Shown one piece after another: positions 22,324-31,554 of a stretch of 31,554 bases of DNA. The notes under the pieces were generated by a model. The model was not told the origin of the DNA. It made no database searches and was given only the letters and a program-made list of their open reading frames with translations. The first letter of the stretch is position 1. The number at the start of each line of letters is the position of its first letter. This stretch comes from a virus, in the IMG/VR virus record IMGVR_UViG_3300047157_000054, positions 1-31,554 of that record; one strand, 5' to 3'. Both the position numbers and the translations under genes were made by a program.

Positions 22324-22515
22324 ATGAATAACTTAGAATTAGAATTTATAAACGAGATAAAACGCCTAGGACTTAGGAGAGTAGATGTAGCTGATCATTT
22401 AGGTATTTCCTATGATACGCTTAAAAGAAAACTTCAAGATCCTGGGCGCTTTACTTATGCAGAGCTTATAAAGCTCAAAGAATTAAAATTAAACTTAAAC
22501 AATCTAGAATTATGA
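22324..22515 (+). CDS. Small HTH protein (63 aa), Cro/XRE-like
   Basis: LRRVDVADHLGISYDTLKRKL (residues ~17-37) has the spacing of a helix-turn-helix (ADHLGIS as the turn). The C-terminus is Leu-rich and may dimerise. It is the only transcription-regulator-like protein in the genome and could act at the palindrome near 4711 or in the early region; that link is speculation. It overlaps the next gene by 4 nt (ATGA). Confidence 0.7.
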   Translation: MNNLELEFINEIKRLGLRRVDVADHLGISYDTLKRKLQDPGRFTYAELIKLKELKLNLNNLEL

Positions 22516-23072
22516 AAAAAGAAAAATCAGTATTTGAGGTTTTATCAGCTGTAAATGTTAGCGATAAAGTCGAGAAAAAAGGTAATCTATCATATCTATC
22601 CTGGGCGTGGGCATGGGGAGAGGTTAAAAAGCGCTATCCTAGTGCTAAATATTGGTATTATAAAGATAAAAAAACAAAATTACCATTAGCTTTTAATAAT
22701 GCTTTTGGAGGTTTTTGCTATACAAGAGTTACCATAGATGGAGATACTTTGCCAATGTGGTTACCTATTTTAGATAACAGAAATCAAACTGTAACAAAAC
22801 CAAACGCTTTCCAGGTTAACTCTACTTTAATGAGATGTTTAACTAAAAATCTGGCTATGCATGGACTTGGACATTATATTTATGCTGGAGAGGATTTACC
22901 AGCTTCAGCTGACATACAAGAGCTATCTAAAACCGATGAAAAACCCTGGCTTAAAAAATCAGAGTTAGAAGCTACTTTAAAAGGTACTAAAAAACAGGCG
23001 GAAACTGTACTCTCTGCCTATAATATGAAAAATGAGTACAAACAACAAATAATAAATAAATTTAAAATCTAA
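22512..23072 (+). CDS. Single-strand annealing protein, DUF1071/Sak3-like
   Basis: 186 aa. NLSYLSWAWAWGEVKKRYP (residues ~25-43) and VNSTLMRCLTKNLAMHGLG with YIYAGEDLP are the hallmark motifs of the DUF1071 family, assigned to phage single-strand annealing proteins (Sak3). It would coat and anneal DNA ends during recombination-dependent replication. The C-terminal ~45 residues are a basic helical tail. Neighbours are an SSB-like protein and an exonuclease, the expected partners. Confidence 0.82.
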   Translation: MKKEKSVFEVLSAVNVSDKVEKKGNLSYLSWAWAWGEVKKRYPSAKYWYYKDKKTKLPLAFNNAFGGFCYTRVTIDGDTLPMWLPILDNRNQTVTKPNAFQVNSTLMRCLTKNLAMHGLGHYIYAGEDLPASADIQELSKTDEKPWLKKSELEATLKGTKKQAETVLSAYNMKNEYKQQIINKFKI

Positions 23073-23441: not shown

Positions 23442-23624
23442 ATGGATTTTTTTAATGATGTAGATGTTTACGACAGCACTCCAGAGGATGATAAAAAATT
23501 TATGGAGGAGAGAATTATTGTGTTACTAGAATATTTAGCTAATTCAAGAAATGAAGTGACAATGCTCAAAGGAGAAAATTCATATCTCAAACAAAAACTA
23601 GAACAAAATGATATTAAATACTAA
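23442..23624 (+). CDS. Small coiled-coil protein (60 aa)
   Basis: Acidic N-terminus (DFFNDVDVYDSTPEDDKKF) and a heptad-like second half (IIVLLEYLANSRNEVTMLKG, YLKQKLEQ). No family recognised. It overlaps the exonuclease gene by 17 nt, so it may be made at a fixed ratio with it and could be an accessory subunit; that is inference. Confidence 0.6.
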   Translation: MDFFNDVDVYDSTPEDDKKFMEERIIVLLEYLANSRNEVTMLKGENSYLKQKLEQNDIKY

Positions 23625-24378
23625 ATCAGACACTAATGCTGAATATCACTCAAATAGTGCTATTTCGGCTAGTGGTTTAAAAAAGATATATAAAAAATCT
23701 GTTTATCATTATCTAAATGACAGCTTTACAGAAACTCCAGCAATGGCTTTAGGTACAGCTGTACATACTTTAATGCTAGAAGGTCAAAAACAATTTGACC
23801 AGGATTATTATTTACTGCCTAAATACGATGGGCGCACTAAAGAGGGAAAGCAGATAAAAGCTAAACACGATAAGCTAGCAGGGGATCGCAAATGTTTAAG
23901 GGACGAGGATATGACTATTATATCTGGTATTATGAAAAATTATAAACAGCATGACCTAGCGCAAAAATATTGTAATGGAACTGTAGAGCTTTCTCATTAT
24001 GGTAAAATGGAAGGAGTAGATATAAGGGTGCGCCCAGACGTATTTGACAAAAAACAGAATTGGATAGGGGATGTTAAAACCTGTCAAGATAACTCTCCTA
24101 TAGCTTTTAAAAGGGACTTATATAAATACGCTTATCACTTGCAGGCGTGTTTTTATTCTGATGTATTAGGATTTCCTCCAGAAAATTTTAGGTTTATAAC
24201 AGTAGAAACAAAACATCCATATAGCGTAGAAGTTTATGGATTAGGAGACAAAGACATTGAACTAGGCAGACAAGCATATTTAAGAGCTTTATCTGACTGG
24301 AGATTTTACTTAATAACAGGATCTGCTAAAGGTTATTCGGCTGCTGGATATAATGAAGATGGATCTTTAATACTTTAA
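23608..24378 (+). CDS. Exonuclease, RecE/YqaJ-like PD-(D/E)XK family
   Basis: 256 aa. ISASGLKKIYKKSVYHYL, then AMALGTAVHTLMLE (the early helix with H), and the catalytic block VRPDVFDKK (D144) and IGDVKT (D155-x-K157), followed by YKYAYHLQACFYSDVL, the QxxxY-type helix of RecB-like nucleases. It resembles the PDDEXK/DUF3799 exonucleases paired with phage annealing proteins. It should resect double-strand ends to give 3' tails for the annealing protein at 22512. Confidence 0.85.
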   Translation: MILNTKSDTNAEYHSNSAISASGLKKIYKKSVYHYLNDSFTETPAMALGTAVHTLMLEGQKQFDQDYYLLPKYDGRTKEGKQIKAKHDKLAGDRKCLRDEDMTIISGIMKNYKQHDLAQKYCNGTVELSHYGKMEGVDIRVRPDVFDKKQNWIGDVKTCQDNSPIAFKRDLYKYAYHLQACFYSDVLGFPPENFRFITVETKHPYSVEVYGLGDKDIELGRQAYLRALSDWRFYLITGSAKGYSAAGYNEDGSLIL

Positions 24379-24381
24379 AAA

Positions 24382-24798
24382 ATGGAATTATATAAAATAC
24401 AGTTTATAGTAGAAAATTATTTCGGTTATAAATTAAACGTAAAAAGTAGGCGTAGGCATTTAGTTGATGCTAGAAAAATCTATTTTGGTTTATGTAGAGA
24501 ATTTACTAGATATGGTTTATTTAAAATAGGTAAATCATTAAGTAGAGATCATGCTACAGCTTTGCATAATATTAGAAGCTGTAAGGATTTAAGACAAACA
24601 GATCCAGATTTTAACAGGAAATATTTAGATTTGTATAAACAAGTGAATAGTTTAAAGGCAAATAATTGGATACCTAAAAAAATTATTATACCAAAAGTTA
24701 TTCACCCAGGAATTTTCATGTATGGCACAAAAGAATCCATTCGCAAAATATTTAACAAAAGAAGATCAACTTCAAAACAGCGTGATGTCTTATATTAA
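24382..24798 (+). CDS. Stand-alone DnaA domain IV-like DNA-binding protein (138 aa)
   Basis: RRHLVDARKIYFGLCREFTR followed by FKIGKSLSRDHATALHNI lines up with the DnaA C-terminal domain: basic helix, helix-turn-helix and the signature xRDHxTxLH (S54-R-D-H57-A-T-A-L-H62). No AAA+ ATPase part is present, so it can bind but not remodel DNA alone. It may bind origin sequences, compete with host DnaA, or serve as an initiator accessory. The C-terminal ~50 residues are basic and unlike DnaA. It overlaps the next gene by 77 nt. Confidence 0.75.
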   Translation: MELYKIQFIVENYFGYKLNVKSRRRHLVDARKIYFGLCREFTRYGLFKIGKSLSRDHATALHNIRSCKDLRQTDPDFNRKYLDLYKQVNSLKANNWIPKKIIIPKVIHPGIFMYGTKESIRKIFNKRRSTSKQRDVLY

Positions 24799-25096
24799 AA
24801 TGCAATATCCTGGAGTTTTTGCTATTCATGTACCTAATGAGGGTAAAAGATCTCCATTTGAGCGCTATAAGTTTAAATACTTAGGCGGAACTGCAGGAGT
24901 TCCAGATATTTTAATATTTCAAGCGAAAACGAATTACAGCGGTTTAGCGATAGAATTAAAAGTAGGATATAATAAACCTACAGAAAATCAATTAAACTGC
25001 TTAGAGCGTCTTAAAAACGCCTCCTGGGATGCGCAGTGGTGTAATACATTTGACGCTGCAAAAAATATTATAGACAATTATATGGCTTATGACTGA
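24722..25096 (+). CDS. VRR-NUC family nuclease
   Basis: 124 aa. Core motifs of VRR-NUC: HVPNEGKRS at 36-44, GTAGVPDILIF with D62, and LAIELKVG with E78-x-K80, then PTENQLNCLERL, the closing Q-L helix. The family is a stand-alone PD-(D/E)XK domain found in many phages and related to structure-specific nucleases. It may resolve branched intermediates from recombination-dependent replication. ATG at 24722 lies within the previous gene (77-nt overlap in another frame); the start is supported by motif distance. Confidence 0.85.
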   Translation: MAQKNPFAKYLTKEDQLQNSVMSYIKMQYPGVFAIHVPNEGKRSPFERYKFKYLGGTAGVPDILIFQAKTNYSGLAIELKVGYNKPTENQLNCLERLKNASWDAQWCNTFDAAKNIIDNYMAYD

Positions 25097-25347: not shown

Positions 25348-26076
25348 ATGAAACCAAATTACTATGCTATAATACCAGCCGAGGTTAGGTATGATGACAA
25401 ACTATCCCCAAATGCTAAACTACTTTTTGGCGAGATTACAGCTTTATCAAATAAAAAAGGTTATTCCTGGGCATCGAATAAATATTTTGCAGAGCTGTAT
25501 GATGTAGATAAAAAAACTGTTTCTAGATGGGTTAAGCAGCTAGAGGATTTAAACTATATATCTTCTGTTATGGAATACGATAAAGAAACTAAAAGAGTTG
25601 TAAAAAGAACCATAAAAATAAACAGCTCTTACCCTATGGACAAAAATGTCCAGGGGGGACAAAAAGATCCCCAGGGTGGGGACAAAAATGTCCAGGTTAA
25701 TATATATAGTAATAATAATAAGAATAATATAAAAGATAATACCGCCACTTTTAAAAAAGTGACTGATTTCGATAAAAAGTATATTACTGCTTATGATCAT
25801 ATTAAAATATTATTTGAAAATAGATACCAGCCAAAAACAACTCTGCAGAAAATAAACTGGCTTAATGTTATTAGATTATGCGATACTAAAGATGATGTAA
25901 ATCCCAGGCAGCTTTACTGGATATGTAAAAAGGCAGTGGATGATGACTTCTGGTCAAGTAACTTTTTATCTATAGCAGGCATGAGAGATAAAAAAAAGGG
26001 AGTTTCCAAACTAGATAGATTTATTAAAAAATTTGGAGGTAAAGAATTTGATATACTAGCTGATGATAAAGCGTAG
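25348..26076 (+). CDS. Replication initiator-like protein with N-terminal winged-helix (HTH_36-like)
   Basis: 242 aa. AIIPAEVRYDDKLSPNAKLLFGEI and SNKYFAELYDVDKKTVSRWVKQLEDLNYI are the typical start of phage replication proteins with a MarR/HTH_36-like winged helix. A low-complexity linker (~residues 95-135, DKNVQGGQ, GGDKNVQ, NIYSNNNKNN) is encoded by iteron-like DNA repeats. The C-terminal domain (DHIKILFENRY; FIKKFGG) resembles DnaD/loader-like ends. The arrangement matches lambda O, an initiator whose gene contains its origin. It probably recruits the primase-helicase at 26744. Confidence 0.78.
   Translation: MKPNYYAIIPAEVRYDDKLSPNAKLLFGEITALSNKKGYSWASNKYFAELYDVDKKTVSRWVKQLEDLNYISSVMEYDKETKRVVKRTIKINSSYPMDKNVQGGQKDPQGGDKNVQVNIYSNNNKNNIKDNTATFKKVTDFDKKYITAYDHIKILFENRYQPKTTLQKINWLNVIRLCDTKDDVNPRQLYWICKKAVDDDFWSSNFLSIAGMRDKKKGVSKLDRFIKKFGGKEFDILADDKA
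25637..25740 (+). other. Candidate replication origin: three iteron-like repeats plus AT-rich tract
   Basis: Three repeats with a GGACAAAAA core and an AGG end: 25637-25654, 25655-25675 and 25678-25696. The first is a dyad, TGGACA-AAAA-TGTCCA; the second pairs GGGGA with TCCCC; the third is nearly the first. From 25697 to 25740 follows a ~44-bp tract almost free of G/C. Iterons next to an unwinding element inside an initiator gene are the lambda ori layout. Confidence 0.5.
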
Positions 26077-26230
26077 TATCCAAATTTGCTTATATGATGT
26101 TGACAAAAATGCACAGACATATACGCAAAAACGTCAAGTAGATATTAACAAAAATGCTAGAGATAATAGTTTAATTAATGATATAAAGAATAAGAAAGAA
26201 TCTCTTTTAAAAACGCCATGTTTAAAATAG
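26063..26230 (+). CDS. Small basic protein (55 aa), overlaps both neighbours
   Basis: ATG at 26063 lies in the end of the replication gene and the stop lies in the start of the next (overlaps of 14 and 13 nt). It fills the only gap in the early block exactly. The product is basic and polar (VDKNAQTYTQKRQVDINKNA, NDIKNKKESLLKT), with DKNA and NKNA echoing the linker of the initiator. No family recognised. Filling of the gap with clean overlaps is the main argument that it is real. Confidence 0.55.
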   Translation: MIKRSIQICLYDVDKNAQTYTQKRQVDINKNARDNSLINDIKNKKESLLKTPCLK

Positions 26231-26743: not shown

Positions 26744-28426
26744 ATGAATTATAATGAATTTATAAATATCGGTATTACTCCAAAAGGTAATGCTATAGAG
26801 CAAAAGGTAATATGTCCGCAATGCTCACACACTAGAAAAAATAAAAAAGATCCCTGCTTATCTATAAATTTAGATAAAGGCGTTTATAATTGTCATAACT
26901 GCGGATGGAGTGGTAATGTAAATTTTAAACCAAAAAAAGAATTTGTAAAACCTCCAGAGGCAAAAACAAACTTATCAGAAAAAACTATAAAATGGTTTAA
27001 TAAAAGAGGTATTACAGAAGCTACTTTATCGCATTGGAAAATAGGCGAATCTATAGAATACTTTCCTCAAGCTCGTAAAGAGAGAAATGCTATAAACTTT
27101 AATTATTTCAGAGAAGGTGAACTCATAAACTGTAAATTCAGAGATGGACAAAAGAATTTTAAAATGGTTTCTGGAGCTGAGCTTATATTTTATGGTTTAG
27201 ATTCTATTAACGAAATGCCTACTATTTATATTGTAGAAGGAGAAATGGATGCTTTGTCACTGCATGAAGCTGGTATTTATTCTGTATGCTCAGTACCTAA
27301 TGGCGCATCTAAAGGTAATCAGCGCCTAGATTACTTAGATAACTGCTGGGAATATTTTAAAGACAAAAAAGAAATTATCTTATGTACTGATAATGATCAG
27401 CCAGGATTGTCTCTAAGAAATGAACTCGCTAGAAGGTTTGGACAATATCGCTGTAAGTATGTAGAATTTGGCGATTTTAAGGACGCTAATGAGGTTTTAA
27501 TTGAAAAAGGTGCTGAAGTACTAAGAAACATTTTAAAAACCTCAAAACATTTTCCACTGGAAGGCGTAGTAAATGTAAATGATATATGGAAGGATGTATT
27601 AAATTATAATGAAAATGGTATAAAAAACTATTCTGTAGGATTAGGTAATAGCGATGATTATTTTAAAATTGATTTCGAAGGTTCTTGGTCGGTGGTAACT
27701 GGTATTCCAAACTCTGGTAAATCAGACGTAGTAGATCAGATAGCTTGTAATATGGCTGTAAATTATAGACATAGAACAGCTTTTTTTGCTCCAGAATCAT
27801 TTCCATATGAAGGTCATATTAAACGACTAGCAAACAAATTAAATGAACGTATTTGTACTAATGAAGATTTAAATAATACTAAAGATTTTATAGAGGAGCA
27901 TTTTTATTTCGTAAAAATAGATTTAGATAATTTAACTCTTGATGGCATACTAGAGGCGTTTAGAGATTTGGTATTTCAAAAAGGTGTTAATCTTTTAGTA
28001 ATTGATCCCTGGAATATGCTTGACCATTCAGCTCAAAGAGATCACTCATATATAGGTGTTATGCTTTCTAAAATTACTCAGTTTTGCCAGCAGACAAAAA
28101 CTCATCTTTTTCTAGTGGCGCATCCTAGAAAAATGTCTATAAGTGAATCTGGTATTTATCAAGTTCCAACTCCATATGATATTTCTGGATCAAGTGATTT
28201 TTTTAATAAGGCATTTAATTGTGTTACAGTTTACAGATCACTAGGCGAGATTACTAAATACAAATCTGATGCTGTACAGATGCATATACAAAAGGTAAAG
28301 CGCAAAGAAAATGGCAGCCAGGGCATGTTTACTCTTGCTCCAGATTTTAAGGATGGGGGGGTATATAAGTCAATAGATGAGAAAAAACAAAGATTTACAG
28401 TAGTACACGACAAAGTACCTTTTTAA
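26744..28426 (+). CDS. Primase-helicase (T7 gp4/Twinkle-like, DnaB-type helicase)
   Basis: 560 aa with the complete domain order. Zinc finger: C24, C27, C50, C53 (CPQC...CHNC). TOPRIM: YIVEGEMDAL (E165) and CTDNDQPG (D216, D218). RecA-like helicase: Walker A GIPNSGKS (320-327), Walker B LLVIDPWN (D421), and later FLVAHPRK with the SGSSDFFNKAFN sensor region. It unwinds the fork and synthesises primers, probably as a hexameric ring. It directly follows the nuclease-like gene and precedes two small genes and the terminase. Family assignment is firm. Confidence 0.93.
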   Translation: MNYNEFINIGITPKGNAIEQKVICPQCSHTRKNKKDPCLSINLDKGVYNCHNCGWSGNVNFKPKKEFVKPPEAKTNLSEKTIKWFNKRGITEATLSHWKIGESIEYFPQARKERNAINFNYFREGELINCKFRDGQKNFKMVSGAELIFYGLDSINEMPTIYIVEGEMDALSLHEAGIYSVCSVPNGASKGNQRLDYLDNCWEYFKDKKEIILCTDNDQPGLSLRNELARRFGQYRCKYVEFGDFKDANEVLIEKGAEVLRNILKTSKHFPLEGVVNVNDIWKDVLNYNENGIKNYSVGLGNSDDYFKIDFEGSWSVVTGIPNSGKSDVVDQIACNMAVNYRHRTAFFAPESFPYEGHIKRLANKLNERICTNEDLNNTKDFIEEHFYFVKIDLDNLTLDGILEAFRDLVFQKGVNLLVIDPWNMLDHSAQRDHSYIGVMLSKITQFCQQTKTHLFLVAHPRKMSISESGIYQVPTPYDISGSSDFFNKAFNCVTVYRSLGEITKYKSDAVQMHIQKVKRKENGSQGMFTLAPDFKDGGVYKSIDEKKQRFTVVHDKVPF

Positions 28427-30393: not shown

Positions 30394-31554
30394 ATGGCAT
30401 CTCTACTAGATAGATTCAAAAACATTGTTTCTAAAAGCGCATCTAAAACTCATATAGATTTTAATAAAGCTATTTATAACTACTTAGGCGATTCCTTAGT
30501 TTGGAATCCAGAAAATGATGATACTTATATTGATAAAGGATATAGGTATAACGCTACTATTTACTCAATAGTTAATTTAATAACTAAAGCAGCGACAAAT
30601 ATTCCTTTTCAAGTTTATGAAATACAAAAACAAAACGACTTAAAAAGATATAAAGCTCTAACATCTGGAGAGTTTAACGGAAATACAGTGCTGCAAGCTA
30701 AAATGCTACAAAAAAAAGCATTAGTAGAATTGGAGGGTACTGAGTTACATCAGTTACTAGATAGACCTAATCCAGCTCAAAGCTACTCCAGCTGGATCCA
30801 AGAAATTATAGCTTTTGGAAAACTTACTGGAAATAGATATATCTATGGTATAGCGCCAGAGACAGGTATAGGAGCTGGTAAATATAAGGAGCTTTACATA
30901 TTACCATCTCAAAAAATAGAAATCAACTCTGGAGGTATTATGCAGCCAGTAAAGGAATATACTTTATCTTATAATGGATCATATAAAATAGCAGCTGATG
31001 AAATCTGCCATATAAAGGATAATAACCTCTATTATGATGGAACTGGATCACATCTTTATGGAATGTCTCCACTAAAAGCTGGACTCAGAGTAATGGATGC
31101 TAATAACCAGGCGTTAACTACAGGAGTAAAATATTTACAGAATCAAACAGCTAGGGGGGTGCTTATGTCTGATGAAGGAGATTTAAATGAAACTCAAGCT
31201 AGAGCATTAAAAGAAAAATTCAAGCAGCAATACCAGGGAAGTGAAAATGCTGGAGATGTTATTATAACACCTAAGAAACTCAGCTGGGTAAACTTTGGAC
31301 TTAATGCTTCTGATCTATCTCTTATAGAACAATATAACGCCACTATTAAGGATTTATGTAATATCTATAATGTTCCAGTACAGCTTTTAAATAATACAGA
31401 CAGCACAACTTACAACAATATGAAGGAAGCAAAAAAAGCGCTTTATCAAAATGCTGTAATTCCAGAGCTAAATAAAATCAGAGATGAATTGAATAGATGG
31501 CTCGCTCCTCAGTATGGAGATAAGATCTATATTGACTTTGACTATAGCGCTATT
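30394..31554 (+). CDS. Portal protein, N-terminal 387 codons (continues at position 1)
   Basis: Starts ATG at 30394 and is open to the window end with no stop. Motifs of HK97-family portals: RYNATIYSIVNLITKAATNI (the early clip-forming helix), DRPNPAQSYSSWIQEIIAFG, LTGNRYIYG, LYGMSPLKAGLRVMDANNQA, ARGVLMSDEG, NIYNVPVQLLN and TYNNMKEAKKALYQNAVIPE. The last codons run into CCAGAGCTTCAAGAG at position 1 (PELQE), exactly where the family continues. Length to the true stop is 650 aa. The DNA gate and packaging ring of the head; it interacts with terminase, encoded just upstream. Confidence 0.93.
   Translation, partial: MASLLDRFKNIVSKSASKTHIDFNKAIYNYLGDSLVWNPENDDTYIDKGYRYNATIYSIVNLITKAATNIPFQVYEIQKQNDLKRYKALTSGEFNGNTVLQAKMLQKKALVELEGTELHQLLDRPNPAQSYSSWIQEIIAFGKLTGNRYIYGIAPETGIGAGKYKELYILPSQKIEINSGGIMQPVKEYTLSYNGSYKIAADEICHIKDNNLYYDGTGSHLYGMSPLKAGLRVMDANNQALTTGVKYLQNQTARGVLMSDEGDLNETQARALKEKFKQQYQGSENAGDVIITPKKLSWVNFGLNASDLSLIEQYNATIKDLCNIYNVPVQLLNNTDSTTYNNMKEAKKALYQNAVIPELNKIRDELNRWLAPQYGDKIYIDFDYSAI

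Follow-up and report, generated by a model that had tools for sequence, protein, structure and literature searches.

A candidate replication origin within the initiator gene of a phage and a putative two-residue code for the iterons of HTH_36 initiators

Introduction

Origins of replication that are embedded in the gene of their own initiator are already known, and the examples that follow have experimental support. In lambda an A/T tract adjoins the iterons of the intragenic origin (PMC7466680). SPP1 carries oriL in the gene of its own origin-binding protein gp38, where direct repeats are accompanied by an A/T-rich unwinding element (PMC6316719). In the Staphylococcus phage 80alpha the gp20 gene is essential, supplying it in trans does not complement its loss, and a plasmid is replicated by ORF20-21 (PMC5499656); together these observations place the origin in the gene. 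A similar arrangement is found in the plasmid pSK41, where the winged-helix (wHTH) N-terminal domain of Rep binds Rep boxes in the middle of its own gene and the linker is dispensable as protein. Moreover, the pPR9 hybrid, in which the initiator carries a pfam13730 domain and the origin region has been swapped, is able to replicate and shows compatibility with pSK41 (PMC5703833).

Here we describe a locus of a marine phage, within a virus record of 31,554 bases (the whole of which is referred to as the window), that would add a member to this group. It shares features with each of these systems and differs from each. As in lambda, the putative origin lies inside the initiator gene and is made up of interrupted palindromic iterons with an A-rich centre. 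The annotated iterons of lambda are spaced 20, 24 and 23 bp apart and lie in three reading frames; there are four of them, with arms TCCCTC, whereas the window has three, with arms GGACA. The N-terminal DNA-binding domain of lambda O also appears to differ from the HTH_36 domain of the window protein. The initiator of Staphylococcus phage 77 is related to that of the window and likewise has palindromes in its linker, whereas 80alpha gp20 has a DNA-binding domain and repeats unlike those found here, and the C-terminal domains of both these initiators are unlike that of the window. pSK41 is a plasmid and not a phage; its initiator is of the RepA_N type, and the C-terminal domain of Rep binds DnaG. 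Finally, SPP1 differs in having a second functional origin, oriR, 13 kb from oriL.

Results and Discussion

The main genes of the window share one direction and the gene neighbourhood of the candidate origin is a replication module (Table 1). The portal gene exits the right end (30394-31554) and apparently resumes at the left end (1-792); the record may therefore be a complete, circularly permuted genome of ~31.5 kb.

Table 1. Coordinates of features in and around the candidate origin.
Feature	Position	Strand	Details
Sak annealing protein	22512-23072		Replication module
Exonuclease	23608-24378		Replication module
DnaA domain-IV protein	24382-24798		Replication module; Bac_DnaA_C only, E 1.4e-11
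VRR nuclease	24722-25096		Replication module
Initiator gene, 242 aa	25348-26076	+	HTH_36 winged helix, disordered linker, lambda-O-like C-terminal domain
Recognition helix, residues 55-67	25510-25548	+	AlphaFold model
Putative specificity residue X=K56	25513-25515	+	Strongest helix-column association with site class (with Y)
Putative specificity residue Y=R60	25525-25527	+	Strongest helix-column association with site class (with X)
Iteron 1, GGACAAAAATGTCC	25638-25651	+	Exact copy
Iteron 2, GGACAAAAAGATCC	25657-25670	+	Imperfect; frame differs from iterons 1 and 3
Iteron 3, GGACAAAAATGTCC	25680-25693	+	Exact copy
A/T tract, candidate DNA-unwinding element	25697-25740	+	93% A/T, 44 bp
Lambda O C-terminal-like segment, residues 149-215	25792-25992	+	BLASTP, hhalign
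Strain-specific insert	26077-26217	+	Degenerate iteron-like array (~26100-26157) and A/T-rich stretch; outside main origin
Primase-helicase	26744-28426		Replication module, downstream of initiator

The initiator matches PF13730 (HTH_36) with 54.5 bits (curated cut-off 25, E 1e-14) and the PHROG replication initiation families with a best E of 4.6e-27. In an AlphaFold model a winged helix (residues 5-91) is followed by a disordered stretch (96-133) and a helical domain from residue 143. The disordered stretch is the part encoded by the iterons and A/T tract, which bears out the initial annotation in placing the repeats within the linker of an HTH replication protein. The fold of the N-terminal domain resembles that of pSK41-type Rep (4pql, 4pt7, 5kbj, 4pta) with Z of 8.4-9.6, a value that other winged helices also reach. 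RepA_N is absent among the Pfam matches of the initiator and the similarity is therefore one of fold only. A search of solved structures with the initiator sequence returned nothing relevant. At the other end of the protein, residues 149-215 (67 aa) align to the lambda O C-terminal domain at 34% identity (E 7e-9), and hhalign gives a probability of 93.7% for the same relationship; judged by these alignments, the two C-terminal domains are homologous. For the N-terminal parts, BLASTP and hhalign both returned no alignment. Lambda O had initially been brought in as an analogy, and the likeness now goes beyond that, since the C-terminal domains are homologous and the iterons of lambda share the spacing and also occupy three frames.

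Each of the three repeats is an interrupted palindrome of 14 bp (GGACA-N4-TGTCC), and successive copies start 19 and then 23 bp apart. Two are exact and the middle one is imperfect. The dyad-symmetric repeats first described are all present, as is the A/T tract of about 44 bp said to follow them. The sequence GGACAAAAANNTCC has no further exact match in the window, and 7 matches with up to two mismatches were seen against 2.3 expected. A likelihood score was used to look for tandem interrupted palindromes, since unweighted scoring was dominated by A/T repeats. By this score the array at 25637 tops the 31.5-kb window (27.4; runner-up 19.6). The A/T content of the adjoining tract is equalled at just one other position in the window, and the tract is among the window's three least stable 50-bp stretches. 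It is very likely, judging from these features and from those described below, that 25638-25740 is a replication origin inside its own initiator gene, which the initiator would bind and melt and to which it would recruit the helicase. The original proposal that iterons and A/T tract within the initiator gene form a candidate origin is thus well supported at the level of sequence. A GC-skew signal at about 25.7 kb had been put forward as a check; the skew is positive throughout, with no inflection there, and therefore speaks neither for nor against an origin at this position.

We next consider what the repeats are conserved for. Iterons 1 and 3 encode DKNVQ, as was noted at the outset in suggesting that protein and DNA signals share the same bases. 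However, iteron 2 lies in another frame and encodes GQKDPQ; the peptide repeat is therefore a by-product and the shared protein signal was overstated. Several of the codons within the iterons are seldom used in this genome (GTC is 7% of Val, CCC 3% of Pro and GGG 8% of Gly), and when the sequence was recoded synonymously 100,000 times two palindromes arose just once. Synonymous conservation in relatives, a check proposed in the initial annotation, supports its reading: across 12 relatives the Asp codons within iterons are GAC in 23/23 cases, versus 11% elsewhere, and the Val codons are GTC in 17/23, versus 8% elsewhere. Furthermore, GGACA-N4-TGTCC doublets occur in more than one frame in 48/64 or 50/66 non-redundant initiators (two sets), and between them the loci make use of all three frames. 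These codon and frame patterns indicate that selection acts on the DNA and that the peptide is not its target. The opposite reading, in which DKNVQ units and a flexible linker are what is kept and the DNA repetition follows from them, can point to the peptide common to iterons 1 and 3 and to the orientation of the A-run, which keeps the linker hydrophilic. Yet iteron 2 and most arrays elsewhere fall in other frames (DKNV, GQKCP, TKMS), the rare codons are invariant, the linker is predicted to be disordered and some arrays lie wholly outside the initiator ORF. The frame changes refute the peptide as the sole explanation, and we find this reading scarcely credible.

The palindrome is not confined to this phage. 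Two exact copies no more than 30 bp apart were found in 58 contigs of IMG/VR and in 31 contigs of bacterial genomes, the latter from Paenibacillus, other Bacillota, Treponema, Desulfoluna, Flammeovirgaceae, Armatimonadetes and others, whereas the control doublets gave 1 contig (reversed) and 0 (head-to-head). When the centre was left free, GGACA-N4-TGTCC doublets were present in at least 119 viral contigs. Their spacing, with peaks at 21-24, 31-34 and 42 bp, corresponds to helical turns; A/T-rich genomes have AAAA as the centre, whereas in G/C-rich ones it is often CCCA or CCAG. In 111 of 175 loci the doublet lies inside an ORF matching an HTH_36-like profile; the remainder include non-coding places, truncated contigs and ORFs that lack a profile match. 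Across 66 non-redundant loci with the doublet inside an HTH_36-like ORF, from contigs of 25 to 69% GC, the first site starts a median of 70 nt past the HTH domain.

Some occurrences depart from this layout. One Clostridia assembly has GGACAAAAATGTCC doublets with 33-bp spacing in at least 6 places (L113, L118, L122, L123, L135, L138), which are unlinked to an HTH_36 gene and apparently represent a dispersed repeat; L130 and L132 show a similar pattern with 34-bp spacing. In Treponema (L116:4729-4874 and L127:5535-5647) four or five perfect copies of GGACAAAAATGTCC are found exactly 33 bp apart, in a single frame of an ORF unmatched by the HTH_36-like profile. Lastly, five high-GC isolate contigs (L056, L059, L070, L083, L088) carry a doublet 31 bp apart that lies outside the linker of an HTH-type gene, close to where this gene starts on the other strand, as a possible operator or displaced origin.

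Related initiators carry the same layout with other arms, namely TTAACA-N4-TGTTAA in Lactobacillus phage c5, CGACA-N4-TGTCt in Cellulophaga phage phi39:1, TTGACG-N4-CGTCAA in the linker of Staphylococcus phage 77 and TCACGA-N4-TCGTGA in Fusobacterium phage Funu2. We examined 96 distinct initiators picked by protein similarity, independently of the site. Compared with synonymous shuffles, 36 had arrays at p<=0.017 and 48 at p<=0.05, and strong arrays (score 18 or more) were found in 29/96 linkers versus 9 in 435 kb of surroundings. As about half of the initiators have no array that beats the shuffles, either detection is incomplete or some initiators differ. Between phages 77 and 80alpha (L232 and L380) the initiator C-termini are near-identical while the DNA-binding domains and repeats differ, in what looks from the sequences like another module swap.

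To relate arms to protein, the recognition helix was numbered as x-X-[TS]-[VI]-S-Y-W, so that X is K56 and Y is R60 in the window protein. Among 32 non-redundant arrays of the unselected set, arm base 5 is C in 18/18 cases where Y is R and in 0/14 with any other Y, while base 3 is G in 15/18 cases where X is K or R and in 1/14 with any other X; these and all covariation counts and p-values ignore kinship. In the reciprocal test, loci were chosen from the DNA site alone and the helix residues were then read. GGACA loci have X=K/R in 62/64 and Y=R in 62/64; TTAACA loci have X=V/I in 12/15 and Y=R in 15/15; TTAAAG loci have X=V/I in 16/20 and Y=R in 0/20, all 20 having K, N, T, Q or G instead. 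X and Y are also the helix columns most tied to site class (z 24 and 20 versus shuffles). For a kinship-corrected test a tree was built without the helix columns (59 columns), but it had too few supported branches: just 2 independent pairs per trait had support, and these agreed with expectation in direction. Of the predictions made outside the training sets 4 were right, for L349 (TTAACA), L340 (AAG arm end), L320 (base-5 C) and Polaribacter phage P12002L (TTAAAG); 1 was wrong (L348, TCCACA with Y=T) and 1 had no clear outcome (L350). In an unselected PF13730 sample from three phyla, GGACA arrays were found only at loci of the motif-found genomes, suggesting that K/R together with R is nearly necessary and not sufficient.

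That the arms follow X and Y suggests that the sites are bound by a domain of the initiator itself. Overall we judge it reasonably probable, with considerable room for doubt, that HTH_36 initiators of phages and mobile elements use a modular two-residue code, X56 specifying arm bases 1-3 and Y60 bases 4-6, and that GGACA-N4-TGTCC is a site common to several bacterial phyla and to contigs of 25-69% GC. Neither the cross-phylum palindrome nor the two-residue code was found in the literature searched; the palindrome as an exact string had no match in open-access literature, which is not proof of novelty. In the pairs L029/L031 and L015/L016, moreover, the gene ends are ~90-100% identical whereas the interval from recognition helix to iterons is 38-62% identical. 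With low identity restricted to this interval between near-identical flanks, helix and sites appear to be exchanged as one cassette.

The same data bear on whether the sites act as RNA. The arms could pair as 5-bp stems (GGACA-AAAA-UGUCC) in the initiator mRNA and control its translation, and the exact AAAA-centre doublets found all share one orientation. However, the spacing tracks DNA helical turns, the arms covary with residues of a DNA-recognition helix, and the centre drifts with genome GC, with opposite orientations in existence (AAAT/ATTT, L152, L163). Rfam and tRNA searches of the window gave no match. RNA hairpins are, in our view, an exceedingly improbable explanation.

A DNA site bound by its own gene product could instead be an operator, through which the protein represses its own operon, the sites then governing transcription and not replication. 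wHTH proteins are frequently regulators, the high-GC isolates L059, L070 and L083 carry the doublet upstream of an HTH gene, and L125 has an additional site near the gene start. Against this, the array is mostly found ~300 bp into the gene, where it occupies a fixed part of the linker beside an A/T tract, the C-terminal domain is of the lambda O type, and the equivalent layout is an origin in lambda, SPP1 and 80alpha. Operators in place of an origin are therefore improbable, though the least so of the alternatives considered, and it is possible that self-binding serves both the origin and autoregulation.

Downstream of the initiator, two weaker copies of the repeat core had been annotated at 26102 and 26147. 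These are real, with a third degenerate copy between them, but they belong to a separate insert of ~140 bp, which follows the initiator and precedes the next gene and had been overlooked. The insert is missing from the other relatives examined, except near-identical phages, and is similar to linkers in which other initiators combine iterons with an A/T tract (blastn E 1e-8 to L106). Compared with the near-identical phage L002 it has 16 differences, all within the 83 nt of its iteron half; its A/T half and the next 575 bp are identical. No true case of a second array near other initiators was found in 211 loci. Judging from its sequence, the insert may be what remains of an earlier initiator, or it may be an additional origin that is undergoing change.

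This second degenerate array, 0.4 kb downstream, gives some weight to the idea that the main array is a relic or a recombination hotspot of initiator modules and that replication starts elsewhere, at the second array or through a DnaA-domain protein. Helix-to-iteron cassettes are indeed swapped between relatives, and a DnaA domain-IV protein is encoded at 24382. On the other hand, the main array persists through strong divergence of the initiator protein, whereas the second is variable and absent from relatives, and despite the encoded domain IV there is no DnaA box (TTWTNCACA) in the window. We consider a start elsewhere very improbable.

We thus favour an origin at the main array, and a mechanism can be proposed. 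The winged-helix domain would bind the three GGACA-N4-TGTCC palindromes, probably as dimers, with K56 and R60 of the helix reading the arms. As the sites are about two helical turns apart, the bound proteins would stack on one face of the DNA and could help to melt the adjoining A/T tract. The replicative helicase would then be brought in by the lambda-O-like C-terminal domain, and the primase-helicase that the phage itself encodes is the probable candidate. Each of these steps, from binding and melting to the recruitment of the helicase and initiation itself, is deduced from sequence.

Conclusions

Most metagenomic phages have no known origin. If the code is true, both the origin and its binding specificity could be read from sequence for many uncultured phages, so that origins, initiator specificity and compatibility groups would become predictable from metagenomic data. 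It would also follow that odd linker peptides such as DKNV, GQKCP and TKMS are one DNA site in three frames. Moreover, swaps of helix-plus-iteron cassettes would then be a route by which phages acquire a new replicon identity, and such exchangeable cassettes would let phages and plasmids escape replicon incompatibility simply.
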